Part shown: positions 32,526-51,019 of the stretch, piece by piece
Layout: every line of letters starts with the position of its first letter
How positions within the stretch are numbered: position 1 is the first letter of the stretch
Origin: Coxiellaceae bacterium
GTDB lineage: Bacteria > Pseudomonadota > Gammaproteobacteria > Coxiellales > Coxiellaceae
Direction: 5' to 3'
Assembly: GCA_030680235.1 (NCBI GenBank)
Contig: JAUXWQ010000030.1
Coordinates: forward strand, 1-64,000
Length of the DNA: 64,000 bases
The notes under the pieces: model-generated
Seen by the model: the letters and a program-made list of their open reading frames with translations, nothing else
Database searches by the model: none
What the model was told of the DNA's origin: nothing
Program-made: the position numbers and the translations under genes

Positions 32526-33798
32526 AAAGTTATCATTTTTTGAATGGATGTTTCCTTTGATGGTGCTTGCTTTTTTGGCGCAAGGGACTCAGTTTATGGC
32601 TGTTTCACATGTGAGCGACCTGCGTTTTCTTTTTTTAGGGCTGTTGTTTTTATTCTTTTTTTTAAATAGAAGCATGTTGGGTTCAATTGAAAATGGATGG
32701 TGGCTTCTATTGCTCTTAATTTATCTGATGTGGTGTATGTCAACCACACTGTGGTCTGAAGTGTTTTCACTGAGTCTTGGTAAGAGTGTAGTATTTGCAG
32801 TTACAGTCGTTACCTTAATTTCTGCGGGCACTGCGTGGATACTTACTATTGGCTTTACACGTGGCTTTTCATGGCTGTTTCCAGTGTTAATCATGGTATT
32901 AATATCGGGACTGCTAGGGGGTTCTGCAAATGATAAAATTGGCATAGTTGATTTATATTCTGGATTATCAGGAAATGCAAATAATTTCGGGTTTCTAACA
33001 GCAATTGTGTCTTCATTGCTACTTTGGAAGTGTTTTCAGTCGAGAGAAAAAAAAGGGATGTTTTTTGTTTGGTTCATACTATTTTTAATCGACACGCATT
33101 TTTTATTTTCAAGCTATTCTCGTAGTGCTATCGTTGTTTTTTTATGTATTTTGTTGCTTTTTATACTGAATTTTCAGTTCTCAAAAAAAATAGTGATTGG
33201 GCTTGCCGGCATTTTTTCAATCGTGATTGTCCTTTTGGTTCTGCCGACGAGCTATGTAGAGGCAAAGATTTCCCCTTATATCCTCAAGGGAACCTCTATG
33301 GATACTCAAAATACTTTTCTCAAAGCAGTTCTTCACTCCCGGGCAGGCGTTTGGAAAATATCTTACGAACAAGCCTTAAAAGGTGGTGTTGTGGGAGGGG
33401 GATTTGGAGCGACCATTGGGCAGAAAAATATTAATATAAATTCCATGCTGCATCAATCTACAATGGGATATGGTCGTGAAAAAAGTAATTCTGAGTTAAG
33501 TATTATGGAAGAAACGGGTATTATTGGTTTGGTTTTGTTTGTGCTGATAATTGTATTTTTCTTTTTTTATGTTATGCCTTATTACTTTTATCTTAAAGGG
33601 GATGAGAAGGTTGCGATGGGATTGACCTTGGGTGTGTTGCTTGGCTTGTTGTTAGAAACCTTGGTAGAAGCGTGGTGGGATTCTTTGGGGCCTGAGGTTA
33701 TTTGTTTTTGGACATGCATTGGTATGATTTTCGGTATGATTAAACTTATTAAAGAAAAAATGTATTTAGATGAATTAAAGAATCGGAGTGCTATGTGA
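32515..33798 (+). CDS. Wzy/O-antigen-ligase-like membrane protein
   Basis: A 427-residue protein with about 11-12 hydrophobic helices. It has a large periplasmic loop near residues 245-330 bearing HSRAGVWKISYEQALKGGVV and GGGFGATIG. This matches the WaaL/Wzy superfamily, which polymerises repeat units or joins glycans to a carrier at the periplasmic side. Polymerase versus ligase cannot be told from sequence. It is coupled to the upstream glycosyltransferase (11-base overlap) and to the deacetylase (GTGA overlap). Confidence 0.8.
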   Translation: MRIRKLSFFEWMFPLMVLAFLAQGTQFMAVSHVSDLRFLFLGLLFLFFFLNRSMLGSIENGWWLLLLLIYLMWCMSTTLWSEVFSLSLGKSVVFAVTVVTLISAGTAWILTIGFTRGFSWLFPVLIMVLISGLLGGSANDKIGIVDLYSGLSGNANNFGFLTAIVSSLLLWKCFQSREKKGMFFVWFILFLIDTHFLFSSYSRSAIVVFLCILLLFILNFQFSKKIVIGLAGIFSIVIVLLVLPTSYVEAKISPYILKGTSMDTQNTFLKAVLHSRAGVWKISYEQALKGGVVGGGFGATIGQKNININSMLHQSTMGYGREKSNSELSIMEETGIIGLVLFVLIIVFFFFYVMPYYFYLKGDEKVAMGLTLGVLLGLLLETLVEAWWDSLGPEVICFWTCIGMIFGMIKLIKEKMYLDELKNRSAM

Positions 33799-34580
33799 AC
33801 GCATTGCGTTGGAAGCGGAAGATTGGAAAACTATACGCGCATCTATATGCTCAGTCGAATAATCGCTGTATTATTCTGATTTATCATGCTGTGGGGTATG
33901 GCCCCTGGGCGATATCGCCTGATAGTTTTCAAGCACAAATAAGCTGGTTGCAAAAACACTGTGACATTGTTTCATTATCTGAACTGTTGAAGCCATCAGA
34001 TTATTCCCCTCGGATTCGTGTAGCAATTACTTTTGATGATGGTTATGCTTGTTTGTATCAGCATGTGTTACCGTTTTTAAAAAAGGCGACAGTTTATTTA
34101 AATACGAATTGGATTGGTGACGAGCCCTTATATCGAATAAATTCAAATTCAGAGTTGGGACACTATCCTAGTGAGCAGTTTTTAACATGGGATGAAGTAA
34201 AAATACTTGAGCAAAGTGGATGGGAAATTGGTTCCCATGGTGCGGATCATCTTGATTTAACACAGCAAGCAGCTGAAAAAATTGCTAGTGAATTAAGACA
34301 TTCTAAAGAGCATATTGAAAATAAATTGCAAAAACCGTGTCATCATTTTGCATATACCTGGGGACGTCATAACAAGAATCTTCGGAACACTGTTGCAACT
34401 GTGGGATATCACACGGCGGTTGCTGCACATCATCAGATGCTGAGTCACACAGATGATGTTTTTTCATTGCCGCGGTTAAATGTTGATCGAAATTACAGTC
34501 TTGATGATTTTAAGCGCGTTGTTTTAGGAGAATGGGATTTTATTCGATTTGTGCACCGAGTGAGAAACATTGCTTTATGA
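33795..34580 (+). CDS. Polysaccharide deacetylase (NodB-like)
   Basis: A 261-residue carbohydrate esterase 4-type enzyme that removes N- or O-acetyl groups from glycans. The metal and catalytic motifs are there: VAITFDDGYACLYQHVL (TFDDGY) and EIGSHGADHLDLT (SHG-x-DH, two His). No signal peptide is seen, so it may act on lipid-linked or nucleotide precursors in the cytoplasm. It starts with GTG in a GTGA overlap with the preceding gene and overlaps the next gene by ATGA. Confidence 0.87.
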   Translation: MNALRWKRKIGKLYAHLYAQSNNRCIILIYHAVGYGPWAISPDSFQAQISWLQKHCDIVSLSELLKPSDYSPRIRVAITFDDGYACLYQHVLPFLKKATVYLNTNWIGDEPLYRINSNSELGHYPSEQFLTWDEVKILEQSGWEIGSHGADHLDLTQQAAEKIASELRHSKEHIENKLQKPCHHFAYTWGRHNKNLRNTVATVGYHTAVAAHHQMLSHTDDVFSLPRLNVDRNYSLDDFKRVVLGEWDFIRFVHRVRNIAL

Positions 34581-35740
34581 AATTAGTGATTAATGCTTTT
34601 AATATACAAATTGGTGGTGGATTAATGCATCTGATTGAGCTTTTATCAGCGGCAGATCCACAGCGTTACGGATTTTCAAAAGTTGTTATTTTTGCAGGAG
34701 AAAAAACTTTAGCGCAATTGCCAGAAAAAAGTTGGCTTGAAAAAAAAAGCCATCCAAAATTAAATGGAAATTTTTTAAGTAGAATCAAATGGAATTTGTT
34801 TTATCTGAATCGCGAGCTGCAAGATACAGCCCTTTTGTTTATCCCAGGTGGCACTTATCTTGGAAAATTCAGGCCATTTGTTGGAATGTTCCAAAACGCA
34901 CTCCCTTTTGAGCCAAAAGAAACAAAACAGTTTTTGGTTTCTGCACCTACAAGTTTTTTGAAATGGCGTTTATTGAGAATAACGCAAGGGGCGACATTTT
35001 CACAAAATACAGCAGCTATCTCTCCTTCTGGCTATTTAAAATCTATCATTATACAAGCCGTAAAAAAAACAGTAGTTCGGAATTTTTCTGTTATTCCACA
35101 TGGAATTAATCCTATTTTTTTTGCTGCTCCAAGAATTGAGAATAAATTGCTTAGCCAAAAAGCTGAAATTCATATTTCCTATGTTTCGCGAATTGATATT
35201 TATAAACATCAGTCAATGGTAGTTCATGCTGTTGCTGCGTTACGTAAAACAGGATTACCCGTTGTGCTCCATTTGTATGGAGACTGTGGTCACCCACTTG
35301 CGATGCAAAAAATGCATGAAGCGATGCATTCTGTGGATCCTGGAAAACAATTTATTGTTTATCATGGCTATATTGAGTATGAAAATCTCCCGATAATTTA
35401 TCAAAAAACAGATATTTTTGTTTTTGCCTCTAGTTGCGAAAGCATTTCTAGTATTTTATTGGAAGCAATGGCCTCTGGATTGCCAATTGCTTGTTCTAAA
35501 ATACCGGTAGCGTCAGAAGTTGTCAAAAATGCAGGGGTATATTTTGATCCTGAAGATACAGATGATATAAAACGCGCAATAGCTTTATTGATTTCAGATG
35601 ACAAGTTAAGAAGTGATTTGGCACAAAAGGCATATTTATATGCAACAGAATACAGTTGGAAAAATTGTGCTGATAAAACCTTTGCATTATTACAAAAAAC
35701 GGCTGAGTGTTATGGAAAAAAAGCATGCGCAAAAAACTAA
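34577..35740 (+). CDS. GT4-family glycosyltransferase
   Basis: A 387-residue GT-B enzyme. The acceptor half begins KLVINAFNIQIGGGLMHLIE. The donor half has ISYVSRIDIYKHQSMVVHAV and FVFASSCESISSILLEAMAS, with the conserved acidic pair, and then GLPIACSKIPVASEV. Starts at 34577 in an ATGA overlap with the deacetylase. It belongs to the same operon and adds one sugar of the repeat unit; the sugar cannot be assigned. Confidence 0.88.
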   Translation: MKLVINAFNIQIGGGLMHLIELLSAADPQRYGFSKVVIFAGEKTLAQLPEKSWLEKKSHPKLNGNFLSRIKWNLFYLNRELQDTALLFIPGGTYLGKFRPFVGMFQNALPFEPKETKQFLVSAPTSFLKWRLLRITQGATFSQNTAAISPSGYLKSIIIQAVKKTVVRNFSVIPHGINPIFFAAPRIENKLLSQKAEIHISYVSRIDIYKHQSMVVHAVAALRKTGLPVVLHLYGDCGHPLAMQKMHEAMHSVDPGKQFIVYHGYIEYENLPIIYQKTDIFVFASSCESISSILLEAMASGLPIACSKIPVASEVVKNAGVYFDPEDTDDIKRAIALLISDDKLRSDLAQKAYLYATEYSWKNCADKTFALLQKTAECYGKKACAKN

Positions 35741-37251
35741 ATATCTTGGATTCAACATTGCTTGATGAGTGCGTTCGCGTTAAAAATTTAGGTTTTATAA
35801 GGGTTAAGAAAATAGAAAAGCAGTACTTTGTTAGAGAAGCTTTTTTGTCAAAAATAATCGCTTACGTCAATGAAATTGGCATTAAAAATACCTTTTTTAA
35901 AGTAGTGAGTAGACATAAAGAAAAAATTCGCAATAAAAAATATTTATCCGTCGGTTTTGGCCGAGTGCTGGATTCCAAAAGTGCTGCATTTTCTGAAAAT
36001 GAGACTATTATTTTCATCGCTTATAACCATCCTGCTTATCCAGAGCGCCTTGTGCTTCATCAGAATTTTGTAAAAAAAATACAGCCAATACAATCCAATG
36101 AAGAAAAAGTTTTTTTTGGAAAAGAGGATGGGTTTTTAGATATTACTTGGACGCCATTTTTGGCATGGTCACCTTTTTCTGGTGTTACAGCGCCACATGT
36201 CGATGCGCATATCTGGCAACGTATCGAAGAGTATTGGATTCAATTCTTTAAAGAAAATAAATTAAATGGTATTGCAATTCAATCCACCCCCACTTTGGAA
36301 ATAAAAGAATGTGCTGCGAAAAAAAGTATTAAAAAAACAGGTGTTTTATTTGGTTATGGAAACTATGCTAAAACGATTATATTGCCTAACCTTCACAAAG
36401 ATATTGCTATAACGTGCATCCATGAAATTGATCCAGCACAAATTATGCCGATGAAAAAAAATATCCGCTATGATACCAGTCCCTTTTTAAGAGAAAATGA
36501 GAGATATGATGCTTTTTTTATTGCTGGATATCACCATACGCATGCGGATCTTGCAATTTCTGCGCTTAAAATGAATTCAGATGCTATTGTAGAAAAGCCT
36601 ATTGTAATAACACGTAATCAGTTACAAAATTTATTGGTGGCAATGTCAAAGTCAACTGCTGGCCTTTATGCCTGCTATCAAAGACGTTATCATATTTTTA
36701 ATACCTACCTTTTTCAGGATTTTAAGATTAAAAAAGGTGATCCTATTTCTTATTTTGCAATTGTTTATGAAGAACAATTACCCGAGTACCATTGGTATCG
36801 TTGGCCAGCTTCTCGTAGCAATATTATTTCGAATGGGTGTCACTGGATAGATCATTTTTTATTTTTAAACAATTATTCAGAGCCTGTTAATTTTTATGCA
36901 AAAAAAATCTCTAATCATGAGACTTTTGTTTTTATCACGCTTGAAAATGGTGCAGCATTTACCTTGACGCTATCACATACAGGTAGCTCGAGAATTGGTA
37001 TGCAGGATTATATTGAGTTACGTTCTCAAGATGCGACAGCTAAAATCATTAATAGTAAAACGTATTTTGCTGAAAATTCATCGCGTGTACTCAGAAAAAC
37101 GGCTGTGCAAAAGTTTGATGCTTTTAAAAGAATGTATTGCAAAATTTCAGAAGACATTGGTAATACAGCACGTTCAAAATTAAATGAAAATCCAAAACAG
37201 ATGGAATCAACTTTGTCTTTGATTCTTGATTTAGATGAGCAAATTTTATGA
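35725..37251 (+). CDS. Gfo/Idh/MocA oxidoreductase with N-terminal extension
   Basis: A 508-residue protein. The C-terminal 300 residues form a Gfo/Idh/MocA enzyme: nucleotide-binding GVLFGYGNYAKT near residue 205, YDAFFIAGYHHTHADLAI, and VEKPIVIT (the EKP catalytic Lys). The first 205 residues are a separate domain I do not recognise. They contain FIAYNHPAYPERLVLHQNFV. It lies directly before the bi-domain oxidoreductase and overlaps it by 4 bases, so the two probably act on the same nucleotide sugar. The upstream gene overlaps its start by 16 bases. Confidence 0.82.
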   Translation: MRKKLNILDSTLLDECVRVKNLGFIRVKKIEKQYFVREAFLSKIIAYVNEIGIKNTFFKVVSRHKEKIRNKKYLSVGFGRVLDSKSAAFSENETIIFIAYNHPAYPERLVLHQNFVKKIQPIQSNEEKVFFGKEDGFLDITWTPFLAWSPFSGVTAPHVDAHIWQRIEEYWIQFFKENKLNGIAIQSTPTLEIKECAAKKSIKKTGVLFGYGNYAKTIILPNLHKDIAITCIHEIDPAQIMPMKKNIRYDTSPFLRENERYDAFFIAGYHHTHADLAISALKMNSDAIVEKPIVITRNQLQNLLVAMSKSTAGLYACYQRRYHIFNTYLFQDFKIKKGDPISYFAIVYEEQLPEYHWYRWPASRSNIISNGCHWIDHFLFLNNYSEPVNFYAKKISNHETFVFITLENGAAFTLTLSHTGSSRIGMQDYIELRSQDATAKIINSKTYFAENSSRVLRKTAVQKFDAFKRMYCKISEDIGNTARSKLNENPKQMESTLSLILDLDEQIL

Positions 37252-39356
37252 AGCAATTATTACAATCGCTTAAAACAGGTGACCTCAGCTTAATAGAAGT
37301 ACCTTCTCCACTAGCATCAGAGAATCATGTGTTAATAAAAACACGCTGTTCTTTAATATCTTCAGGTACTGAACGCATGTTAATGGACTTTGGTAAAGCG
37401 ACTATTTTTGGAAAAATCAAACAACAACCCGAAAAAGTGGCTCAAGTTTTTGATAAGATTCGGACAGATGGACTGGTTACTACCTTAGAAGCAGTACAAG
37501 CGAAGTTAGATCAACCCATACCCTTGGGGTATTGCAATGTAGGCACTGTGTTAGAAAATACAAATGGTGCGCGGCATTTTCAAGTGGGCGATCGTGTGAT
37601 TAGCAATGGAGCACATGCAGAAGTGGTTTGTGTCCCTAAGAATTTATGCGTAAAAATTCCTGAGGTTGTTGATGATGAATCTGCTACATTTGCAGTATTA
37701 GGTGCAATTGCACTACAAGGTATTCGTCTTATAAAACCTGATTTGGGTGAGTGTGTTGTTGTTATTGGCCTTGGGCTTATCGGTCAATTGGCTGTGCAGT
37801 TATTAATTGCTCAGGGTTGTCGTGTACTGGGCATTGATTTTGATGAAAGGCGGTGTGTTTTAGCAAAATCTTTTGGCGCTGATGTTTTTTGCGTAAATGA
37901 GAATAATAATTCTGTTGACTATGCAATGGCATTTTCGCGTTATCGGGGTGTTGATGCAGTATTAATCACCGCATCGACTGACAGTAATCAACCAATACAG
38001 CAAGCAGCACACATGTGTCGTCAGCGTGGACGCATTGTGTTGATTGGTGTTGTTGGCCTGCAATTATCGAGAGAAGATTTTTACAAAAAAGAAATTACTT
38101 TTCAGGTGTCTTGTTCCTATGGTCCTGGTCGTTATGATCCTCATTACGAACAGAAAGGAAATGATTATCCTGTTGGGTTTGTGCGTTGGACAGAGAATCG
38201 CAATATCGAAGCTGTTTTAGATATGATGGCAATGGGTAAAATTACTATTGCTCCGTTGATCACACACCGATTTATATTTTTCGAGGCAGTAGCCGCTTAT
38301 CGCGTTTTGGATGATCGAGATGCTTTGGGTATTTTATTAAAATATGCCACTGAAAAACAGGAGAAAGTGTCTGACAATTTCACTGATACTTGTCCAAATA
38401 ATACTGAAAAAAGTATCATTGTGGGCTGTGCAGGGGCTGGTAATTTTGCTTCGCGTATCTTATTACCACAATTTAAAAAACAGCCAGTTTTCTTAGATAC
38501 CTTAGTTTCTAAAAATGGTGTAACAGCTGCTATTTATGCTAAAAAAAATGGATTTTTGCAGGCAAGCTGCCAATTTTCAGATCTCATTAAAAATAAAAAA
38601 ATTAATACTGTTATTATTGTAACACCACATCATTTGCATGCGGATCAAATCATTCTTGCATTACAGGCAGGAAAGCATGTTTATGTTGAAAAACCTTTAG
38701 CAATTACCATTGAGCAGTTGGATCGTGTTGTAGAAACCTATAATTCTTTAAAAACTAAACCTGTTGTGATGATAGGATTTAACCGTCGTTTTTCACCATT
38801 GGTTGTAAAGATGAAAGCATTGCTATCGGATTTGGTTGAGCCTAAAAACATAGTGATGATGGTTAATGCAAAATTTATCCCTAAAGAACATTGGACGCAG
38901 GATAATGATATTGGAGGCGGGAGATTAATTGGAGAGGCGTGTCATTTTATAGATTTGGTAAGATTCATAGCGGATTCACCTATCGCTCATGTCTCGATAA
39001 GCAATTTGCAATCTGATAAGTATTGTAAGAATGAAAATTTTACAGTAACGTTAACTTTTGAGAATGGATCAATGGGAGCGGTGCACTATTTTGCAAATGG
39101 GCATACGCGGTTTCCGAAAGAACGATTAGAAGTGTTTTGTGCAGGAAAAATTTTACAGTTGGATAATTTTAGAAAATTGAACACCTTTGGATTTCGGCAG
39201 TCGGGTAAGCTATTTTCATGGCGTCAGCAAAAAGGGTATTCGGAAGCAATTGATGCATTTGTATCCGCTGTAACACATGGCTTGCCATCACCCATTTTAT
39301 TTTCTGAGATTGTTGAAACGACAAGAGCTTGCTTGCAATGTCATGAGTCCGATTAA
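37248..39356 (+). CDS. Bi-domain oxidoreductase (zinc-type ADH plus Gfo/Idh/MocA)
   Basis: A 702-residue fusion. Residues 1-360 are a medium-chain dehydrogenase/reductase (SSGTERMLMDFGKATIFGK; IPLGYCNVGTV; NAD site VVIGLGLIGQLAVQLLIAQG). Residues 388-702 are a Gfo/Idh/MocA domain (VGCAGAGNFASRILLPQF; VTPHHLHADQI; HVYVEKPLAIT, then IGFNRRFSPL). Proteins of this type sit in surface-polysaccharide clusters with a heparinase-like gene, as here. It probably carries out two redox steps on one sugar; the substrate is unknown. It is the most distinctive enzyme of the cluster. Confidence 0.88.
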   Translation: MKQLLQSLKTGDLSLIEVPSPLASENHVLIKTRCSLISSGTERMLMDFGKATIFGKIKQQPEKVAQVFDKIRTDGLVTTLEAVQAKLDQPIPLGYCNVGTVLENTNGARHFQVGDRVISNGAHAEVVCVPKNLCVKIPEVVDDESATFAVLGAIALQGIRLIKPDLGECVVVIGLGLIGQLAVQLLIAQGCRVLGIDFDERRCVLAKSFGADVFCVNENNNSVDYAMAFSRYRGVDAVLITASTDSNQPIQQAAHMCRQRGRIVLIGVVGLQLSREDFYKKEITFQVSCSYGPGRYDPHYEQKGNDYPVGFVRWTENRNIEAVLDMMAMGKITIAPLITHRFIFFEAVAAYRVLDDRDALGILLKYATEKQEKVSDNFTDTCPNNTEKSIIVGCAGAGNFASRILLPQFKKQPVFLDTLVSKNGVTAAIYAKKNGFLQASCQFSDLIKNKKINTVIIVTPHHLHADQIILALQAGKHVYVEKPLAITIEQLDRVVETYNSLKTKPVVMIGFNRRFSPLVVKMKALLSDLVEPKNIVMMVNAKFIPKEHWTQDNDIGGGRLIGEACHFIDLVRFIADSPIAHVSISNLQSDKYCKNENFTVTLTFENGSMGAVHYFANGHTRFPKERLEVFCAGKILQLDNFRKLNTFGFRQSGKLFSWRQQKGYSEAIDAFVSAVTHGLPSPILFSEIVETTRACLQCHESD

Positions 39357-39369
39357 AAGTGTGGGTTAA

Positions 39370-39540
39370 GGTAACTTCTCAAAACCTCGGGGCAATTGAG
39401 GTGTCGAGCGAAGCGTTTCCCCCTTTAAAAAAGGGGGATTAAGGGGGATTTTATATAAAAATCCCTTCTGTCCTCCCTTTTACAAAGGGAGGGACCCTTC
39501 GTTTAACACCTCAATTTCCCCGGGTTTTTGAGAAGTCACC
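39370..39540. repeat. Palindromic repeat with G-rich core, family 3
   Basis: A 171-bp non-coding repeat. The arms pair: GGTAACTTCTCAAAACC with the inverse GGTTTTTGAGAAGTCACC, and GGGGCAATTGAGGTGT with ACACCTCAATTTCCCC. The middle has CCCCCTTTAAAAAAGGGGGA and a TTAAGGGGGATTTT motif. Similar GGGGG/CCCCC blocks recur at 61.2 kb. It lies between the bi-domain oxidoreductase and wecC. Confidence 0.75.
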
Positions 39541-39567
39541 AATCAAGTATTAATCTGGAGTGGGTAA

Positions 39568-40794
39568 ATGGATTTACGCGTTTGTATTATTGGATTAGGT
39601 TATATTGGCCTTCCTACCGCTGCATTGTTAGCAAATCATGGATTTCAAGTCTTAGGGGTAGATATTAATCCGGCAGTTGTTAAGGTAGTTAATGAGGGTG
39701 AAATTCACATTGTTGAATTAGGGCTTGAAGCTTTAGTAAAAGCAGCTGTTGTTTCGAAAAAACTAAGCGCATCGCTTGTGCCTGAGATTGCAGATGTATT
39801 TATTATTTCAGTGCCAACTCCCTTTACGAATGAAAAGCAGCCGGATTTATCTTATGTGATGAAAGCAGCTGAAAATGTTGCACCTTTCTTGCGAGAAAAT
39901 AATCTTGTTATTTTAGAGTCTACTTCTCCCGTTGGAACGACGCACAAAGTACAACAGCATATTTATTCCTTAAGGCCAGATTTAAAAAATTTATATATTG
40001 CTTATTGTCCTGAGCGCGTTATTCCTGGGCGAATCCTCAAAGAATTGATTGAAAACGATCGTATTGTGGGTGGGGTAGATGAGTTTTCAACAGAAAGGGC
40101 AAGGTGGTTTTATTCAAAATTTGTGAAGGGCAATGTGCTTGTAACGGATGCGTGTACGGCAGAAATGACAAAGCTCACTGAGAATGCATTTCGGGATGTT
40201 AATATTGCCTTTGCAAATGAATTATCTATGATATGCGATGAATTAAAATTAGATGTCTGGGAATTAATTCGTTTGGCAAATCATCATCCAAGAGTTGATA
40301 TTTTGCAGCCTGGACCCGGCGTTGGTGGGCATTGTATTGCAGTTGACCCTTGGTTTATTGTTTCAAAAACACCTGACGTGGCTCAATTGATTAAAAAAGC
40401 GCGTGAAGTGAATATGGAAAAGAAAGCTTGGGTTATTCGTAAAATTAAAAAAGCGGCGGCAAACTATGAGAATCCTACTATTGCGTGTCTTGGCATTACG
40501 TTTAAGCCAGATGTTGATGATTTACGCGAATCTCCTGCTAAAAAAATTGTAGAATCTTTGATGGATGCGAATGTAGGCAAAGTTATCGTTTGTGAGCCGC
40601 ATTTACTCTATTCTGACAAATTTACCTTGATGTCAGCCGATCAGGCAATTCTAAGGGCGGATATTGTTGTGGTGCTTGTGGATCATCGCGAATTTAAAAA
40701 CATCCCTTTGGATTTCTTTGAAGGAAAAATAGTGATAGATACTAGGGGTTGTTTTACACAGGCAGAGACTATATCTGAAGCGGTGTATGCCTAA
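39568..40794 (+). CDS. wecC: UDP-N-acetyl-D-mannosamine dehydrogenase
   Basis: A 408-residue UDP-sugar dehydrogenase. It oxidises UDP-ManNAc to UDP-ManNAcA. It shows the NAD fold (VCIIGLGYIGLPTAALLANH), ESTSPVGTTHKV, YCPERVIPGRIL, KLTENAFRDVNIAFANELS and the active-site loop GPGVGGHCIAVDPWF (catalytic Cys). These match WecC rather than Ugd. Its partner WecB lies at 43480-44667. The stop overlaps the heparinase-like gene by 8 bases. A ManNAcA-type sugar is therefore expected in the glycan. Confidence 0.92.
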   Translation: MDLRVCIIGLGYIGLPTAALLANHGFQVLGVDINPAVVKVVNEGEIHIVELGLEALVKAAVVSKKLSASLVPEIADVFIISVPTPFTNEKQPDLSYVMKAAENVAPFLRENNLVILESTSPVGTTHKVQQHIYSLRPDLKNLYIAYCPERVIPGRILKELIENDRIVGGVDEFSTERARWFYSKFVKGNVLVTDACTAEMTKLTENAFRDVNIAFANELSMICDELKLDVWELIRLANHHPRVDILQPGPGVGGHCIAVDPWFIVSKTPDVAQLIKKAREVNMEKKAWVIRKIKKAAANYENPTIACLGITFKPDVDDLRESPAKKIVESLMDANVGKVIVCEPHLLYSDKFTLMSADQAILRADIVVVLVDHREFKNIPLDFFEGKIVIDTRGCFTQAETISEAVYA

Positions 40795-42361
40795 AATAGC
40801 TTTATATTTTCATACAATTCGATATTTAAAAATGTCGCAGATTTTTTGGCGAATGATAAAAGCTATCAAAAAACCAAGCATTTCTTTTACTGTGGACCGC
40901 ATCATCGTTTTAAATCCTGATAATTTTATTGAGCCAATTTTGCATCAAACAAAATTTATTGAAGGTAATCATATTATTTTCCTAAATAAGGCCTTATCAC
41001 TGGATTGTATTTGGAAAAATAGTCAACAAGAATCCAAGCTATGGCAGTATCATTTGCATTACTTTAATGGACTATTATCTTGTGATAAAAATACAGTATT
41101 TAAAATGACAGAATTGTTGCAATTCTGGTTAATCTATTATCCACCTTGTACAAAAATGGCATGGGATCCTTACCCAATTTCTATTCGAATTGTTAATTTA
41201 ATTAAATATCAGTTTATATATAGTAATTTATCGGCAGACTTATTAAAAAATATTTATTTACAAGCCCGTTTTCTTTATGAGACTCCTGAGTATCATTTGT
41301 TGGGCAATCATTTGCTTGAAAATGCAAAGGCGCTTGTATTTTCGGGATTTTTTTTTGAAGGGGATGAACCACGAAAATGGGCTCAATTAGGGTTGCACAT
41401 TTTACATCAGGAAATACCAAGGCAGATATTAGACGATGGCGGATTTTTTGAATTATCGCCAATGTATCATGCATTAATGCAAGAATTGATGTTGGATATT
41501 TATAATTTATTTCAGGCCTATCAAATCCCATTTCCTGCGTTATGGGGAATTAAATTGCAAAAAATGCGTTTTTGGTTAAAAGCAATGACCCATCCAGATG
41601 GCCAATTGTCATTTTTTAATGATTCAGCATTGTATATAGCGCCAACGCTGTTTGATTTGGAAGGCTATGCAAAGCGCTTGCATTTACCTGATGTTGAGTC
41701 GTCTTTAGAAGGTATCACGCATTTGAAAGAGAGCGGCTATATTCGTCTTCAAAAAAACAAGTGGGTTGCCATTTTAGATTGTGCAAAGATAGGACCAGAT
41801 TATTTGCCAGCGCATGGACATGCAGATACATTATCATTCGAGCTTTCTCTGAATGGAAAGCGAATTATCGTTAACTCTGGTACAAGCACCTATTCTGATT
41901 TAAAACAGCGACAATGGGAACGATCGACTGCGGCACATAATACAGTTGAAATCAATAATCAGAATTCTTCTGATACATGGTCTTTTTTTCGTGTTGGAAA
42001 ACGCGCTTATCCTTGTCAATTGAAAATCCAGGAAAATGAACAGTATTATACAGTAGTGTGTGGTCATACTGGATATAAAAAATGTAATGTCATGCCGATA
42101 CGCCAATGGATAATGACGGATCATCTATTTTCTATTGAGGATAATATTGGAGTAAAAAACAAGGGTGTTGTGAGATTTTATTTGCATCCAGCCTTTGTTT
42201 TTTCAGAAAAAATAGAAGGGCTTAGTGAGAGTGCATTTTATCCTGAGTTTGGAAAAATGATACCATCAAACGTAATAGCAAGACAATTTTATCAGACTAC
42301 TAAATTGACAATTTCTTTTGATAAAGATTGCATTAATGATTTTCGGTTGAATTTTTCATAA
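40787..42361 (+). CDS. Heparinase II/III-like (alginate-lyase-type) protein
   Basis: A 524-residue protein. The N-terminal helical toroid has ending motifs like KLWQYHLHYFNGLLS and PISIRIVNLIKY. The C-terminal beta-sandwich has AHGHADTLSFELSLNGKRI, NSGTSTYSDL and WERSTAAHNTVEIN. These match the heparinase II/III family. The motif with His (PAHGHADT) and Tyr residues is compatible with lyase activity on uronic-acid polymers, in line with the adjacent wecC. No signal peptide is seen. It ends 70 bases inside the convergent glycosyltransferase gene. Confidence 0.85.
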   Translation: MPKIALYFHTIRYLKMSQIFWRMIKAIKKPSISFTVDRIIVLNPDNFIEPILHQTKFIEGNHIIFLNKALSLDCIWKNSQQESKLWQYHLHYFNGLLSCDKNTVFKMTELLQFWLIYYPPCTKMAWDPYPISIRIVNLIKYQFIYSNLSADLLKNIYLQARFLYETPEYHLLGNHLLENAKALVFSGFFFEGDEPRKWAQLGLHILHQEIPRQILDDGGFFELSPMYHALMQELMLDIYNLFQAYQIPFPALWGIKLQKMRFWLKAMTHPDGQLSFFNDSALYIAPTLFDLEGYAKRLHLPDVESSLEGITHLKESGYIRLQKNKWVAILDCAKIGPDYLPAHGHADTLSFELSLNGKRIIVNSGTSTYSDLKQRQWERSTAAHNTVEINNQNSSDTWSFFRVGKRAYPCQLKIQENEQYYTVVCGHTGYKKCNVMPIRQWIMTDHLFSIEDNIGVKNKGVVRFYLHPAFVFSEKIEGLSESAFYPEFGKMIPSNVIARQFYQTTKLTISFDKDCINDFRLNFS

Positions 42362-43470
42362 AATAAAGTGGTGTCTCGTTCAGTCTCTTGATTTTGCATA
42401 AGCACACGTAATTTTTCTAAGCCTAGGGCTCCATCGCAGGGTGGGAATACTTCGGTATGACTGACATGTTCTTGTAAAAATCTTTCAGAATAACCAGAAA
42501 TTCCAGCCAATATAGGTTTTCCTGTCATCGTGTATTCAAATATTTTCGAAGGCAAGACGCGCTCAAATGGCTCGTGTTTTCCTAAATGTAAGAATAAGAT
42601 ATCTGCATTTTGGTATTCTCTAATTAAAGCTTCTCTTGATATGGGATCAATAATTTCAATATTCTTCAAGCCAGCACAAGCCGCTTTTAAGGCTTGTAAT
42701 TTTCCGCCGCTGCCAATAATTTTAAATAGGCATTCTTCTATTGTGTGTTGTGCAAGATAAGGAATGATTTTTTCAAGTGCTTGTCCTAAACCAATATTGC
42801 CAGCATATAAAATGGTTTTTATTTTGTTTTTATTTTTTGTCGTTGTTATATTATTAAAGCAAACATCGACTCCGTTGGATATATAAGTAAGATGGCAAGC
42901 AGAATTAATTTTAGATAATAAGTAAGAAGCAAAATCAGGAGAAACTAAATTGATGACCGAGGCTTTTTTAAAGGTATAATTTTCCACCTGCTTAAAAATC
43001 GGTAAAAATAGGATTTTAATGGGCCTTGACAATAAGGCTTCCATGGTTTCAGTGAAAATATCTCGGATATCAAGCAGTAGAGGGCAGCGATATTTTTTTG
43101 CGGCATTGGCTGCTAAAAACGCGGTGAATAGGCGAGATGATGTGGCTACGACACAGTCATACTTTTTCTTTTTTCTTAAAAATTTTTTAACAGAAAAATA
43201 ATAGGCTGCGAAGGCTTTTGCCTGGTCAATAAATCCAGAATGATGGCAAGGTAATTGCACGCGACAAATATGTAGGTTTTCTTCTTGTTCATAAGCTTGT
43301 GTTTTTGCTTGGTAATTTGAGTATCGGTTTGGCATTGTAGTGACTAGATCAATATGGATATTGAGTGATTTAGCAAGGGGTATTAGCTCATTAATTAAGG
43401 CTGCTGTTCTGAAAGAACCGGCGCATAAATCTGGCGTGTAATAAAAGCTTAATAGTAAAATTCGTTTCAT
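42292..43470 (-). CDS. GT4-family glycosyltransferase (minus strand)
   Basis: A 392-residue GT-B enzyme with a WbpH/WcaI-like beginning (RILLLSFYYTPDLCAGSFRT). Donor-domain motifs are TILYAGNIGLGQALEKIIPY, FKIIGSGGKLQALK and NADILFLHLGKHEPFERVLP, followed by KIFEYTMTGKPILAG. It transfers a sugar, perhaps ManNAc or ManNAcA, because it lies beside wecB on the same strand. Its 3' end overlaps the end of the heparinase-like gene by 70 bases in antisense. Confidence 0.87.
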   Translation of the reverse strand: MKRILLLSFYYTPDLCAGSFRTAALINELIPLAKSLNIHIDLVTTMPNRYSNYQAKTQAYEQEENLHICRVQLPCHHSGFIDQAKAFAAYYFSVKKFLRKKKKYDCVVATSSRLFTAFLAANAAKKYRCPLLLDIRDIFTETMEALLSRPIKILFLPIFKQVENYTFKKASVINLVSPDFASYLLSKINSACHLTYISNGVDVCFNNITTTKNKNKIKTILYAGNIGLGQALEKIIPYLAQHTIEECLFKIIGSGGKLQALKAACAGLKNIEIIDPISREALIREYQNADILFLHLGKHEPFERVLPSKIFEYTMTGKPILAGISGYSERFLQEHVSHTEVFPPCDGALGLEKLRVLMQNQETERDTTLFYEKFNRKSLMQSLSKEIVNLVV

Positions 43471-43479
43471 TGCTTGATC

Positions 43480-44667
43480 CTAGATTTCAGCGAGAACTTG
43501 CTTTTTAGAGGCAGTGTTGTCATGAGGTATTTTGCTTAAAATAAATTGCGTAATACGTTCAGATGCTTTTCCATCGCCATAAGGATTAGCAATTGTGGAT
43601 ATTTTTTCATAGCGAGTTGCATCCGACATTAAGGATTCTGTTTCGACAACAATCTTGTCGGTGTCTGTGCCGGTTAAAATAACAACGCCTGCTGCAACGC
43701 CTTCAGGTCGTTCCGTGACTGATCTTGTCACTAGCACGGGTTTCCCAAAAGAAGGTGCTTCTTCTTGAACGCCGCCGGAATCTGAAATAATTAATGTTGC
43801 TTTATCCATTAAATAAACAAAGCTGTCATAGTCGACTGGTTCAATGAGGTGAATATTAGGAAGACAAGATAAGTTTTCATAAACAGGTTTTTGCACGTTT
43901 GGATTTAAGTGTACTGGATAAATAAAGTGCCAATCAGGATGTTGTGTTGCAAGTTGACGAAAAGCAGTGCAAATACGTAAAAATCCTTCTCCAAAATTTT
44001 CGCGTCGATGACCCGTGATCAAAATCATTTTTTTTTTGTGCACAAGGATATTTTGAATGGCGTCACTGAATAGGCTTAAATAGTTTTTTTTAGCATTTAC
44101 TTTTTCACGCATCCAAAATAGGGCGTCAATCACAGTATTTCCAGTGACAATAATATTTTCATCGGGAATATTTTCTTGCAATAGATTTTTTTTTGCGTTG
44201 AGCGTGGGGGCAAAATGAAACTCTGCAATACGTGAAATAACGGCGCGATTCATTTCTTCTGGAAAAGGCGCATATATATTATGTGTACGTAGTCCTGCTT
44301 CCACATGCGCCACAGGAATTTTTTCATAGAAGGCGGCTAGTGCAGCTGCCATTGCGGAAGTGGTATCGCCTTGAACTAAGACAAGATTGGGTTTATGTTG
44401 CTTTAGGATTATCTGCATTCCTTTAAGAACGCGCGTGGTAATGGCGCTTAGGTCTTGATTAGGAGACATGATATTTAAATCATGATCGGGTATGATTTCA
44501 AAAGACCGTAAAACACGATCGAGCATTTCACGGTGTTGTCCTGTAACGCAAACAATATGTTCAATGTCGTGTGTATGTTTTCTTAGTTCATGGACAATGG
44601 GCGCCATTTTAATGGCGGAAGGGCGTGTACATAAAACACTAAGGACCTTAATGGCAGCTGCATCCAT
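43480..44667 (-). CDS. wecB: UDP-N-acetylglucosamine 2-epimerase (non-hydrolysing)
   Basis: A 395-residue GT-B-fold epimerase. It interconverts UDP-GlcNAc and UDP-ManNAc. Seen are VLSVLCTRPSAIKMAPIVHE (usual GTRPEAIKMAP, here with Cys and Ser), LVLVQGDTTSAMAAALAAF, HVEAGLRT, PFPEEMNRAVISRIAEFHF, TGHRRENFGEGF and SDSGGVQEEAPSFGKPVLV. It supplies WecC. It is on the minus strand with the GT4 gene. The MITE-like copy B lies about 100 bases upstream of its start, in the divergent region with the dehydratase gene. Confidence 0.93.
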   Translation of the reverse strand: MDAAAIKVLSVLCTRPSAIKMAPIVHELRKHTHDIEHIVCVTGQHREMLDRVLRSFEIIPDHDLNIMSPNQDLSAITTRVLKGMQIILKQHKPNLVLVQGDTTSAMAAALAAFYEKIPVAHVEAGLRTHNIYAPFPEEMNRAVISRIAEFHFAPTLNAKKNLLQENIPDENIIVTGNTVIDALFWMREKVNAKKNYLSLFSDAIQNILVHKKKMILITGHRRENFGEGFLRICTAFRQLATQHPDWHFIYPVHLNPNVQKPVYENLSCLPNIHLIEPVDYDSFVYLMDKATLIISDSGGVQEEAPSFGKPVLVTRSVTERPEGVAAGVVILTGTDTDKIVVETESLMSDATRYEKISTIANPYGDGKASERITQFILSKIPHDNTASKKQVLAEI

Positions 44668-47067: not shown

Positions 47068-48273
47068 GTGAACAAAAAAAGAAATATTGCTGTTATCACG
47101 GGCACACGTGCTGAGTATGGCTTGTTGCGTAATTTATTGAAAGAAATTCAATCGGATTTTTTCCTGAAACTTCAGCTTATTGTGACCGGGATGCATTTAT
47201 CACCTGAGTTTGATCTAACCTATCAATTAATTGAGAATGATGGCTTTTTAATTGATGCAAAGATTGAGATGCTTTTATCGAGTGATACTTCAGTCGGTAT
47301 TGCGAAGTCTGTTGGCATAGGCGTGCTTGGATTTTCGGATTGTTTTGAACGTTTAAAGCCTGATTTAATTGTTGTCCTAGGCGATCGATTTGAAATATTA
47401 GCGGCCGTACAAACCGCAATGATAATGAAAATTCCTGTTGCGCATCTTCATGGTGGGGAATTAACGCAAGGGGCGATTGATGACAGCATTCGTCATGCTA
47501 TTACAAAAATGTCACATCTGCATTTTACGGCAGCAGAAGTGTATCGAAATCGTGTGATTCAGCTTGGAGAGTCGCCGGATCGCGTGTTTAATGTGGGTGC
47601 ATTGGGCGTTGAAAGATTAAAAAAAAATATTTTATTGTCCAAAGAAGCGCTTGAGGAAATAGTAGACTTTCAATTTGGAACGCCTACTTTTTTAGTGACC
47701 TATCATCCAGCAACGCTATGTCTAGATAACATTCAAGAAGAGATGAAAGCTTTGTTTGATGCCTTGGACCAATTTCCACAATCAAAAATTATTTTTACAA
47801 AGGCAAATGCGGATGAAGCAGGGCGCTTTATTAATCAGGCAATAGATAATTACGTAATGAAAAATAATGGCCGTGTTAAGGCCTTTGTAAGCATGGGAGA
47901 TCTCAATTATCTGAGTGCTATGAAGCATGCTGATGCTGTAATAGGAAACTCATCAAGTGGTATTATTGAGACTCCCAGCTTACATAAGCCGACTGTTAAT
48001 ATTGGTAGACGTCAAGAAGGACGATTATTTGCAGATTCTGTCATTCAATGTGGTGTTAATATGGGCGATATACAGCAAGCGATTTTTAAGGCCGTATCAC
48101 TTGAATTTAGAAGGGTTGTGCAAAACACAATCTCACCTTATGATGCAGGGGATACGACAAATTTGATCGTTACTATTTTAAGAACAGTTAACTTAGAAAC
48201 GCTCACACAAAAGAAATTTTTTGATATCAAGGTTCAGGGATGTGACTATGAAAAAAACCTTTATCATTGCTGA
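47068..48273 (+). CDS. neuC: UDP-GlcNAc 2-epimerase, hydrolysing (NeuC/LegG type)
   Basis: A 401-residue hydrolysing epimerase that releases the free 2-epimerised hexosamine and starts nonulosonic-acid synthesis. Seen are NIAVITGTRAEYGLLRNLLK, VVLGDRFEILAAVQTAMI, AHLHGGELTQGAIDDSIRHA, ITKMSHLHFTA and GNSSSGIIETPSLHKPTVNI. The true substrate may be UDP-GlcNAc (sialic type) or a GDP/UDP diacetamido sugar (legionaminic type). GTG start. It overlaps the synthase gene by 26 bases, and NeuB, NeuD and PtmE-like genes follow. Confidence 0.9.
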   Translation: MNKKRNIAVITGTRAEYGLLRNLLKEIQSDFFLKLQLIVTGMHLSPEFDLTYQLIENDGFLIDAKIEMLLSSDTSVGIAKSVGIGVLGFSDCFERLKPDLIVVLGDRFEILAAVQTAMIMKIPVAHLHGGELTQGAIDDSIRHAITKMSHLHFTAAEVYRNRVIQLGESPDRVFNVGALGVERLKKNILLSKEALEEIVDFQFGTPTFLVTYHPATLCLDNIQEEMKALFDALDQFPQSKIIFTKANADEAGRFINQAIDNYVMKNNGRVKAFVSMGDLNYLSAMKHADAVIGNSSSGIIETPSLHKPTVNIGRRQEGRLFADSVIQCGVNMGDIQQAIFKAVSLEFRRVVQNTISPYDAGDTTNLIVTILRTVNLETLTQKKFFDIKVQGCDYEKNLYHC

Positions 48274-49324
48274 GGCTGGTGTCAACCACAATGGTGATCT
48301 GACATTAGCAAAACGGCTAATTGATGTTGCGGCAGATGCAGGCGCAAATGCCGTAAAATTTCAAACTTTTTCAGCAGATGCATTGGTGACAAAAACAGCG
48401 CCGAAGGCTGCTTATCAAATTTGTAATGCAAATACTACTGAATCTCAGTATGACATGTTAAAAAAACTGGAGTTGTCTCGAGAAAAGCATTTTTTCTTAA
48501 AGCAATATTGTGACGAAAAGAAAATTACTTTTTTTTCTACGCCTTTTGACCTCGATAGCGCGAATTTTCTATTACAGGACATGAAACTTTCCACAATTAA
48601 AATAGCCTCAGGTGAAATTACCAATGCGCTTTTGCTATTAAAGATTGCACGAGCACAGCCTAAGATTATTCTTTCGACAGGCATGGCAACTTTGGGTGAA
48701 ATTGAAGAAGCTTTAAGTATCATTGCTTTTGGACTTGTTGATGCTGCGCTACCGCCTTCAAAAAAAGCTTTTTTTTCGGCTTTTTCTTCGGAGTTGGGTC
48801 AACAAATGTTACGAGAAAAAGTAACCTTGTTACATTGCACATCCAATTACCCTGCGCAATTTCAAGATATTCATTTACGTGCAATGGATACACTTTCTTT
48901 TGCATTTGGTTTGCCCGTGGGGTATTCGGATCATTCTTTAGGAATCGCTGTTTCAATTGCGGCAGTTGCGCGCGGCGCTTGTGTGATAGAAAAACATTTT
49001 ACGCTAGATAAAAATTTGCCCGGACCTGATCATCAAGCATCTTTAGATCCTGTTGAATTGAAAAATATGATTTACGCTATTCGAGAGATTGAAGTCGCGC
49101 TAGGAAATACGACTAAGGCACCAACAGGTGCGGAATGTGAAACAAAAAATGTGGCGCGAAAAAGCCTCATTGCTGCAAACACAATTTTACCCGGTGAAAA
49201 ATTCACAGCTCAAACTATCACTGTAAAGCGACCTGGCATGGGTATTTCCGCTATTCATTATTGGGATTATTTAGATAAAAAGGCCTCAAGAAAATATGAG
49301 GCAGGTGATCTTATTTATGAATAA
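48248..49324 (+). CDS. neuB: Nonulosonic-acid synthase (NeuB/LegI type)
   Basis: A 358-residue enzyme that condenses phosphoenolpyruvate with ManNAc or a diacetamido hexose. Seen are FIIAEAGVNHNGDLTLAKRL, DAGANAVKFQTFSADALVTK, IKIASGEITN, LHCTSNYPAQF, PVGYSDHSLGIAVSIAAVAR and the SAF-type C-terminal antifreeze-like domain with VKRPGMGISAIHYWDYL. Its role is the key step to sialic or legionaminic acid. It overlaps the neuC-like gene and the acetyltransferase start (ATGAATAA). Sialic versus legionaminic is not settled by this gene alone. Confidence 0.93.
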   Translation: MKKTFIIAEAGVNHNGDLTLAKRLIDVAADAGANAVKFQTFSADALVTKTAPKAAYQICNANTTESQYDMLKKLELSREKHFFLKQYCDEKKITFFSTPFDLDSANFLLQDMKLSTIKIASGEITNALLLLKIARAQPKIILSTGMATLGEIEEALSIIAFGLVDAALPPSKKAFFSAFSSELGQQMLREKVTLLHCTSNYPAQFQDIHLRAMDTLSFAFGLPVGYSDHSLGIAVSIAAVARGACVIEKHFTLDKNLPGPDHQASLDPVELKNMIYAIREIEVALGNTTKAPTGAECETKNVARKSLIAANTILPGEKFTAQTITVKRPGMGISAIHYWDYLDKKASRKYEAGDLIYE

Positions 49325-49940
49325 ACCCCTCTATATTTTAGGTGCTGGTGGTCATGCAAAAGTCTTATTAGAAGCCTTAGGAAACAATATAACTGGTTTT
49401 TTAGAAATTGACTTAGACTTAATTGGCAAAAAATATGTAGATAAAACTGTTTTTTTACAAGAAGCAATTTTAAAAAAACAGGCGCCTAACAAAATTATGC
49501 TTGTTAATGGTTTGGGTTCTGTTGGATTGCCGATATTACGAAGAAGACAATATGAAGAATGTAAAGAGAAGGGATATCAGTTTTTATCTGTTTTCCATCG
49601 CACCAGTTATTTTTCAGAGGATGTGGTCTTTGGTGAAGGCTCACAACTATTACCGCGATCTGTGGTTTTAACAGGGTCAAAAATAGGTGCAAATACTATT
49701 ATTAACACTTCTTCATCGATTGATCATGACTGTATTATAGGTGCGCATGTGCATATTGCGCCAGGCTGTGTTTTGTCAGGCAATGTTAGCATTGGAAATG
49801 GGTGTCATATCGGTACAGGCGCAAAGATTATTCAGGGTGTTAGTGTTGGAGAGAATGTATTAATTGCAGCAGGCGCAGTAGTGATTCACGATATACCAGC
49901 AAATAGCCGCGTTGCAGGCGTGCCAGCAGTAGTTTTTTAA
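49317..49940 (+). CDS. NeuD-family sugar O-/N-acetyltransferase
   Basis: A 207-residue protein. The N-terminal Rossmann-like part (PLYILGAGGHAKVLLEALGN) is followed by left-handed beta-helix repeats (INTSSSIDHDCIIGAHVHIA; GNVSIGNGCHIGTGAKIIQG). The end is NSRVAGVPAVVF. The family acetylates nonulosonic acids or their precursors (NeuD, PglD, LegH). The start at 49317 overlaps the synthase stop. It is 8 bases before the nucleotidyltransferase gene. Confidence 0.9.
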   Translation: MNKPLYILGAGGHAKVLLEALGNNITGFLEIDLDLIGKKYVDKTVFLQEAILKKQAPNKIMLVNGLGSVGLPILRRRQYEECKEKGYQFLSVFHRTSYFSEDVVFGEGSQLLPRSVVLTGSKIGANTIINTSSSIDHDCIIGAHVHIAPGCVLSGNVSIGNGCHIGTGAKIIQGVSVGENVLIAAGAVVIHDIPANSRVAGVPAVVF

Positions 49941-49948
49941 GGATGATC

Positions 49949-51019
49949 ATGGATAAAAACGCATGGAAAGACGTTCTTGTGTCGCCAGAAATGACGGTGA
50001 TTGCAACGCTAGAAAGCATTTCAAAATCAGCGCTTCAAATCGCGCTTGTGGTTGATGAAAAACAATGTTTGCTGGGTGTCGTGACAGATGGTGATGTGCG
50101 TCGCCACTTGTTGTCTCAAGGAAAATTAGATGAGCCTGTCTTGCGGATAATGAATAAGAATCCAGCGGTTGGGACTCTTGCAGATACCAAAGAATATCTG
50201 TTAATAAAAATGAAAAATAAAAATATTTTACATCTTCCGATTGTGGATGATAATCGCAGGGTCATTGGGCTTGAACTTTTTTCATGCTTAACTAACAAAA
50301 ACAAACGAGAAAATTGGGTTATTTTTATGGCGGGAGGATTAGGTACTCGCCTTCATCCTTTAACATTAGATTATCCAAAGCCATTGGTTAAAATTTGGAA
50401 TAAAACAATTTTAGAGCTTTTATTAGAAAATTTTATTCAAAATGGATTTTATCGTTTTTATTTTTCGGTGAATTATAAAGCGCAAATGATTGAAGCGTAT
50501 TTTGGAAATGGTGAGCGGTGGGGGGTGGAAATTCGTTATTTACATGAAGAACGCGCATCGGGAACAATTGGTAGTTTACAGTTACTACAAGAAAAACCTG
50601 AGCAATCGTTTTTTGTTTTGAATGCAGATATTGTGACTAACCTCAATTTCTCTTGCATCCTTGATTTTCATAAAAATAATAATCAAAACCCAATAGCCAC
50701 GATGTGTGTGCGTCAATATGATAATAGAATACCTTATGGCGTAGTGAAGGTTGATGATCGATATCATTACTTGCTAGATATTGAAGAAAAACCTATAAGA
50801 AGCTATTTTATCAATGCAGGTATTTATATTTTAGAGCCGACCATTTTAGAGTGTTTTCCCAAAAATCAAGAGTATCTCGACATGCCAAATTTATTATTGC
50901 ATTTGGTCGGGCAAAAAAAATGTGTTTCAACTTTTCCTATTCAAGAATATTGGTTGGATATTGGATCTCATGAAAACTTAATGCAAGCAACAAATGATTA
51001 TCAAAGGATATTTGTATGA
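49949..51019 (+). CDS. CBS-domain nucleotidyltransferase (PtmE-like)
   Basis: A 356-residue protein. The N-terminal ~115 residues are a CBS pair (QIALVVDEKQCLLGVVTDGD; ILHLPIVDDNRRVIG). Next is a sugar-phosphate nucleotidyltransferase with FMAGGLGTRLHPLTLDYPKP and NADIVTNLNFSCILDFH. This matches PtmE, the enzyme that makes GDP-GlcN in the Campylobacter legionaminic-acid route. It points to a GDP-linked, legionaminic-type pathway rather than plain sialic acid. A second ATG at 49943 is two codons earlier; AAGGA fits 49949. Confidence 0.82.
   Translation: MDKNAWKDVLVSPEMTVIATLESISKSALQIALVVDEKQCLLGVVTDGDVRRHLLSQGKLDEPVLRIMNKNPAVGTLADTKEYLLIKMKNKNILHLPIVDDNRRVIGLELFSCLTNKNKRENWVIFMAGGLGTRLHPLTLDYPKPLVKIWNKTILELLLENFIQNGFYRFYFSVNYKAQMIEAYFGNGERWGVEIRYLHEERASGTIGSLQLLQEKPEQSFFVLNADIVTNLNFSCILDFHKNNNQNPIATMCVRQYDNRIPYGVVKVDDRYHYLLDIEEKPIRSYFINAGIYILEPTILECFPKNQEYLDMPNLLLHLVGQKKCVSTFPIQEYWLDIGSHENLMQATNDYQRIFV

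Follow-up and report, generated by a model that had tools for sequence, protein, structure and literature searches.

What reaction is performed by a double-dehydrogenase protein and a heparinase-like protein encoded in a polysaccharide locus? This question is raised by four open reading frames (ORFs), here termed GFOF, BIDOM, WecC and HEPAR, that lie in series on contig JAUXWQ010000030.1 of a Coxiellaceae bacterium (assembly GCA_030680235.1). The stretch analyzed, hereafter the window, comprises positions 1 to 64,000 of this contig and is part of a 2.03-Mb gammaproteobacterial draft genome. A first-pass annotation had treated the four genes as one unit. While its ORF positions, with their starts and ends, and its domain content were borne out by the ORF list and by Pfam, the unit itself was not: what emerged was a near-fixed pair, BIDOM and HEPAR, plus two variable neighbors. 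This pair is real and deeply conserved; it is biosynthetic, carries no name and is built from known families. The four genes are as follows.

35707..37251, + strand: GFOF, 514 aa, Gfo/Idh/MocA oxidoreductase with a probable degenerate GroES-like front domain (Pfam GFO_IDH_MocA, catalytic residues)
37248..39356, + strand: BIDOM, 702 aa, zinc-free medium-chain dehydrogenase/reductase (MDR) domain of the alcohol dehydrogenase (ADH) type fused to a Gfo/Idh/MocA domain (Pfam ADH_zinc_N and GFO_IDH_MocA)
39568..40794, + strand: WecC, 408 aa, UDP-N-acetyl-D-mannosamine dehydrogenase, an optional neighbor (Pfam UDPG_MGDP_dh N, central and C)
40787..42361, + strand: HEPAR, 524 aa, heparinase II/III-fold protein (Pfam Hepar_II_III_N and _C)

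All four ORFs are long and conserved, which excludes chance. GFOF and BIDOM overlap by 4 nt and WecC and HEPAR by 8 nt, with a 211-nt gap 5' of WecC; promoter and terminator scans performed no better than on shuffled sequence.

Species genomes were scanned with a BIDOM alignment, and the best 80 loci among the matches listed were examined with flanks of up to 10 kb. These loci span Proteobacteria, Nitrospirota, Acidobacteriota, Verrucomicrobiota, Planctomycetota, Bacillota and others. The first-pass annotation had named frequent separation of its genes in other genomes as evidence against the grouping. By that measure the pair held together, with HEPAR in the flank in 74/80 loci and immediately downstream in 54, whereas WecC-type genes (23/80) and a Gfo protein carrying the GFOF front domain (1/80, L034, with a short Gfo in two more) were mostly absent. 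WecC is thus a common but optional neighbor, and in L028 BIDOM and HEPAR occur without it. UDP-HexNAc 2-epimerase genes were near BIDOM in 37/80 loci and WcaI-like GT4 genes in 40/80. Among the six loci lacking HEPAR, the contig ends no more than 1.4 kb from BIDOM in three (L066, L080, L087) and at 2.8 kb in one (L036). At L030:6466-8640 and L044:10001-12139, BIDOM has no HEPAR in its flank though the contig continues; the latter has WecB/WecC nearby.

Similarly, among 369 gammaproteobacterial genomes, HEPAR was found within 15 kb of BIDOM in 22 of the 31 genomes with BIDOM, and in 18/21 when only high-scoring BIDOMs were counted. A second BIDOM subfamily, more distant and with lower scores (650-720 bits), is often without HEPAR; in genomes of the same family, members with no HEPAR neighbor lie at G001:C17:193188-195275, G002:C4:50328-52451, G005:C6:16680-18809, G012:C12:19542-21674 and G014:C4:23409-25553. 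The distance matrices of BIDOM and HEPAR were correlated (Mantel r 0.40 for all sequences and 0.58 in clade I, p 0.0005), a correlation to which shared organismal descent contributes. Annotated plasmids of Sphingobium, Parabacteroides and Streptomyces also carry the pair, named as a bi-domain-containing oxidoreductase with a heparinase or alginate lyase, and wecB/wecC accompany it in the first two. A search of E. coli genomes with a Vibrio BIDOM-HEPAR DNA gave no match. The gene next after BIDOM and the heparinase-like gene in Streptomyces sp. KN37 encodes a right-handed parallel beta-helix protein (L183:11166-12689), a fold that occurs also in alginate epimerases.

With regard to function, the context of the pair is biosynthetic in annotated loci of Proteobacteria, Bacteroidota and Actinomycetota. 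The window genes sit in a large polysaccharide locus, with glycosyltransferases and a protein weakly similar to O-antigen ligase upstream and WecB downstream. The first-pass annotation had described redox modules with a signal-less lyase-fold protein and no nameable pathway; that description stands, and the context supports a polysaccharide biosynthesis locus. Genetic evidence comes from the relevant work that a search for heparinases in O-antigen or capsule loci returned, a capsule study of Vibrio vulnificus YJ016, in which knockouts of VV0357 and VV0358 lost the capsule and complementation restored it (PMC6037467). The two genes, annotated as a zinc-binding dehydrogenase and a heparinase II/III-like protein, are linked to a capsule locus and were described as rare within the species, the dehydrogenase being thought a membrane protein (PMC6037467). 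Annotation and consecutive numbering fit BIDOM and HEPAR, although the earlier work did not recognize a widespread pair. The need for the V. vulnificus pair in making the polymer points to a building step and hence to a biosynthetic role.

HEPAR belongs to the Heparinase II/III superfamily, as its matches to PF07940 and PF16889 (152.7 and 76.3 bits) far exceed the gathering thresholds (24 and 22), and is not a HepC proper, scoring 78.7 bits against NCBIfam NF045573, for which the cut-off is 700. Its AlphaFold model (pLDDT 91.5) best matched heparinase III (HepC/HepIII; Z 26.2, root-mean-square deviation (rmsd) 6.2, 465 residues aligned), then PL17, PL33 and other lyases, and it also matched human dermatan sulfate epimerase 1 (DS-epi1, 6hzn; Z 18.7, rmsd 4.6, 449 aligned). 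The model predicts the (alpha/alpha)6 toroid and beta-sandwich with Asn/Tyr/His catalytic residues that are typical of the superfamily. In particular, N174, Y227 and H343 align with HepIII Asn240, Tyr294 and His424, in a numbering that we take to be shifted by +24 for the signal peptide. Across 69 HEPAR sequences, residues N174, H175, Y227, D347, Y369, H384 and R439 do not vary. Of these, H175, Y227 and Y369 (69/69) could be matched, by motif and spacing rather than by residue-level superposition, to the DS-epi1 triad His205/Tyr261/Tyr473 (PMC8006597).

As for localization, a crude hydrophobicity measure, used without a positive control, found no signal-peptide-like stretch in 68/69 HEPARs, that of the window included; Vibrio relatives were likewise signal-less. 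Residues 13-30 form a cationic amphipathic segment (18-mer moment 0.51, net charge +5). The possible cytoplasmic lyase of the first-pass annotation is supported as to the lack of a visible signal peptide. An epimerase is judged more probable than a lyase, since V. vulnificus needs its counterpart to make the capsule (PMC6037467).

BIDOM, whose relatives are named 'bi-domain-containing oxidoreductase' by NCBI, comprises an MDR domain (residues 1-370) and a Gfo/Idh/MocA domain (residues 388-702). The MDR half has an intact GxGxxG and Asp197, of the NAD type. Its zinc-ligand Cys/His positions, as placed by motif, hold Ser/Thr35 and Tyr95 in 81/81 sequences, which sets it apart from zinc-dependent ADHs. 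The Gfo half keeps the EKP lysine Lys482, His566 and Asp569 in 80-81/81 sequences, and both NAD sites are kept. The Rossmann GxGxxA, EKP lysine and His/Asp dyad that define Gfo/Idh/MocA enzymes were found in this second half and in GFOF alike. WecC scored 545.7 bits with the PRK11064 profile, above the equivalog cut-off of 459, and is thus a WecC-type UDP-ManNAc dehydrogenase.

How might the pair work? Our preferred reading, held tentatively and with somewhat less than even confidence, is that HEPAR epimerizes a uronate at C5 in the cytoplasm, on a lipid-linked repeat unit, and that BIDOM is a zinc-free redox enzyme that makes or epimerizes a sugar of that unit. The two genes would then be a biosynthetic cassette belonging to Wzx/Wzy-type surface-polysaccharide loci. 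In such loci polymerization is periplasmic, so the substrate of a signal-less HEPAR has to be either the lipid-linked repeat unit or one of its precursors. HEPAR, probably membrane-bound, would remove and restore the proton at C5 of a uronic acid in the undecaprenyl-linked unit, inverting it to the L-series and leaving the chain uncleaved; the target here is plausibly D-ManNAcA supplied by WecB/WecC. BIDOM, as an NAD-dependent double dehydrogenase, would oxidize and re-reduce, and thereby epimerize, or else reduce, a sugar of this unit at a different position. Such chemistry would make HEPAR a bacterial counterpart of dermatan sulfate epimerase: C5 epimerization of uronates is the known non-cleaving reaction on the heparinase fold, whose lyases and epimerases, as argued by those who solved the DS-epi1 and PL33 structures, share one catalytic apparatus (PMC8006597, PMC11848413). 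The analysis itself shows the gene pairing, the folds, the conserved catalytic residues and the lack of a visible signal peptide, and published work shows the capsule requirement for the like-annotated V. vulnificus pair. What we infer in this account is the choice of an epimerase over a lyase, the lipid-linked substrate, the identity of the sugar, the BIDOM reaction and the origin of GFOF.

Several observations weigh against this account. The conserved residues of HEPAR suit a lyase equally well, its best-scoring fold matches are lyases and not the epimerase, and H343 is kept in only 51/69 sequences, with Pro in the other 18, mostly of clade II. The cassette is tied to no sugar structure, so the substrate is putative, and not every locus shows a source of uronic acid, a nucleotide-sugar 6-dehydrogenase being present in the flank of only 23/48 loci with more than 19 kb. 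VV0357/VV0358 fit a BIDOM-HEPAR counterpart by annotation only. Furthermore, a vps-type locus without BIDOM or HEPAR indicates that the cassette is not a general route to L-GulNAcA. The vps-type locus of V. cholerae makes an L-GulNAcA polysaccharide, VPS (PMC3901696), whose C5-epimerase is not known (PMC4432689). HEPAR was rejected as this missing enzyme, since neither HEPAR nor BIDOM was matched in two vps-type Vibrio regions (of six retrieved) that were annotated with the proteins of the window. The protein at the VpsJ position in such a locus belongs to a different, 390-aa family without a Pfam match; its gene (L175:7110-8282, - strand, in G436) has a GT4 and a WecG-like gene on either side, and it is a candidate VPS C5-epimerase.

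The lyase-like features of HEPAR could instead mean that it works in the cytoplasm as a lyase, trimming or recycling lipid-linked glycan that has stalled or been misassembled, a quality control like that of AlgL for alginate but intracellular, with BIDOM making an ordinary nucleotide sugar. The full HepIII Asn/Tyr/His set in clade I and the lyases among the nearest folds fit this, and the lack of a signal peptide would be unremarkable, as signal-less superfamily members are common (17 Vibrio HEPAR-superfamily proteins have no signal-like stretch). We nevertheless consider it improbable: a clean-up enzyme need not be required for any capsule, as the V. vulnificus counterpart is (PMC6037467), the pairing with BIDOM is left unexplained, and catabolic genes (sulfatase, SusC/D, ABC importer) were not found beside the cassette in annotated loci.

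The tight pairing and co-divergence would be accommodated if both enzymes acted on a nucleotide sugar or monosaccharide, BIDOM making a keto-uronate and HEPAR performing a proton transfer, by epimerization or dehydration, to give a new activated sugar. The C3 oxidation of UDP-sugars by the Gfo relatives WlbA and GnnA and the linked UDP-HexNAc 2-epimerases point the same way. This too seems improbable, since we know of no heparinase-fold member that uses nucleotide sugars, and what the fold binds, in a long cleft or tunnel, are oligosaccharides (PMC11848413). Pairing in many phyla, correlated divergence and invariant catalytic residues speak, in turn, against BIDOM and HEPAR being independent tailoring enzymes, linked only by transfer of the same modular sugar pathway, with HEPAR perhaps a non-catalytic glycan-binding subunit. 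Polysaccharide loci are indeed modular and often transferred, and the second BIDOM subfamily does without HEPAR, but this explanation appears quite unlikely. The lipid-linked epimerase reading is thus the one that we retain.

The remaining genes were considered together with the following features of the window.

33795..34580, + strand: polysaccharide deacetylase, which accompanies GFOF in relatives
34532..35740, + strand: GT4 glycosyltransferase, which accompanies GFOF in relatives
42292..43470, - strand: WcaI-like GT4 glycosyltransferase, convergent, overlapping the HEPAR 3' end
43480..44667, - strand: WecB, non-hydrolysing UDP-GlcNAc 2-epimerase, which supplies UDP-ManNAc to WecC

The natural unit differs from the four genes initially noted. 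In close relatives, the neighbors of GFOF are the deacetylase and GT4 genes (L021-L024), which correspond to 33795-35740 here, and a separate block (L026, L027) holds BIDOM, WecC, HEPAR and the convergent GT4. This GT4 overlaps the 3' end of HEPAR by 70 nt (42292-42361), and these two loci retain a comparable convergent overlap. On the same contig, the GFOF module was about 68 kb from the BIDOM-HEPAR module in G004, 80 kb in G001, 86 kb in G006 and 15 kb in G014, and the near-complete relative G003 keeps BIDOM-WecC-HEPAR and has no GFOF; G003 and G004 belong to the same genus as the window genome. Full-length GFOF was present in 4 of the 369 gammaproteobacterial genomes, all four among the 31 with BIDOM. 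In distant genomes GFOF stands beside BIDOM-HEPAR, either contiguously (G190, L034) or in the same locus (G070, G330), and shorter Gfo genes that lack the complete front domain lie just upstream of BIDOM in G163, G235, G201, L065 and L108. From this linkage pattern, GFOF is a linked but optional accessory.

In GFOF, the Gfo part covers residues 206-514, with the Pfam GFO_IDH_MocA match at 214-316 and the catalytic EKP lysine K297, H379 and D382. The part in front of it, thought of as unknown in the first-pass annotation, is probably not: it most likely consists of a degenerate GroES-like domain (residues ~20-130) followed by a linker to 205. A Pfam search of this front domain, ADH_N (PF08240) included, gave no match, the fold-search matches listed for GFOF all fell in the Gfo half (WlbA/GnnA-type folds), and a hidden Markov model of the front alone matched no single BIDOM sequence. 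A combined GFOF model, in turn, matched residues 60-143 of many BIDOMs plus their Gfo half, and profile-profile comparison aligned front residues 47-134 colinearly with columns 72-154 of the BIDOM MDR half (score 30.7, P 0.0018). None of 200 column-shuffled controls reached this score, the highest being 24.6. Structure prediction of the front domain, a check already proposed, placed strands at the positions expected of GroES-like strands. Judging from these results, we are fairly confident that the front domain is what remains of a GroES-like domain after decay, its Rossmann (NAD-binding) partner having been lost. GFOF itself would be an accessory oxidoreductase that probably arose from BIDOM when the Rossmann half of the MDR domain disappeared.

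Beyond WecB, the window encodes proteins that by their sequences look PglF-, NeuC/NeuB/NeuD/PtmE- and Wza/Wzb/Wzc-like, and a predicted ABC flippase. The NeuC/NeuB/NeuD/PtmE-like genes (47068-51019) suggest a nonulosonic acid pathway within the same surface-glycan locus.

Many genomes carry 'heparinase' or 'alginate lyase' and 'bi-domain-containing oxidoreductase' annotations that look degradative or unassigned. A defined subset of these is the pair in surface-glycan assembly loci, which corrects annotations otherwise taken for polysaccharide degradation. If HEPAR is an epimerase, it would offer an intracellular route to L-uronic acids and a new source of C5-epimerases, as well as a bacterial relative for the question, raised for dermatan sulfate epimerase, of how a lyase fold becomes an epimerase (PMC8006597, PMC11848413). 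The broader proposal, that BIDOM-HEPAR is an unrecognized cross-phylum cytoplasmic cassette inverting uronic acids at C5 and a second carbon on lipid-linked units, with DS-epimerase-like enzymes acting before glycan export, is more doubtful and, on balance, unlikely.

Compared with known systems, the UDP-sugar 3-dehydrogenases WlbA and GnnA share the Gfo fold with GFOF, and their catalytic Lys/His pattern is found also in the second half of BIDOM; however, they are single-domain enzymes with neither a fused MDR domain nor a heparinase partner. Heparinase III (HepC, PL12; 4mmh, 5jmd) resembles HEPAR in fold, in the equivalents of Asn240/Tyr294/His424 and in sequence (E 2e-20 to 5jmd), but it is secreted and degrades heparan sulfate, whereas HEPAR has no visible signal peptide and lies in a biosynthetic locus. 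Human DS-epi1 differs in being a Golgi enzyme that acts at the polymer level on chondroitin, and no direct sequence match to HEPAR was found; nevertheless, it shares with HEPAR the two-domain fold, has a His/Tyr/Tyr triad with which HEPAR residues may correspond by motif and spacing, and is itself a biosynthetic enzyme on a lyase fold.

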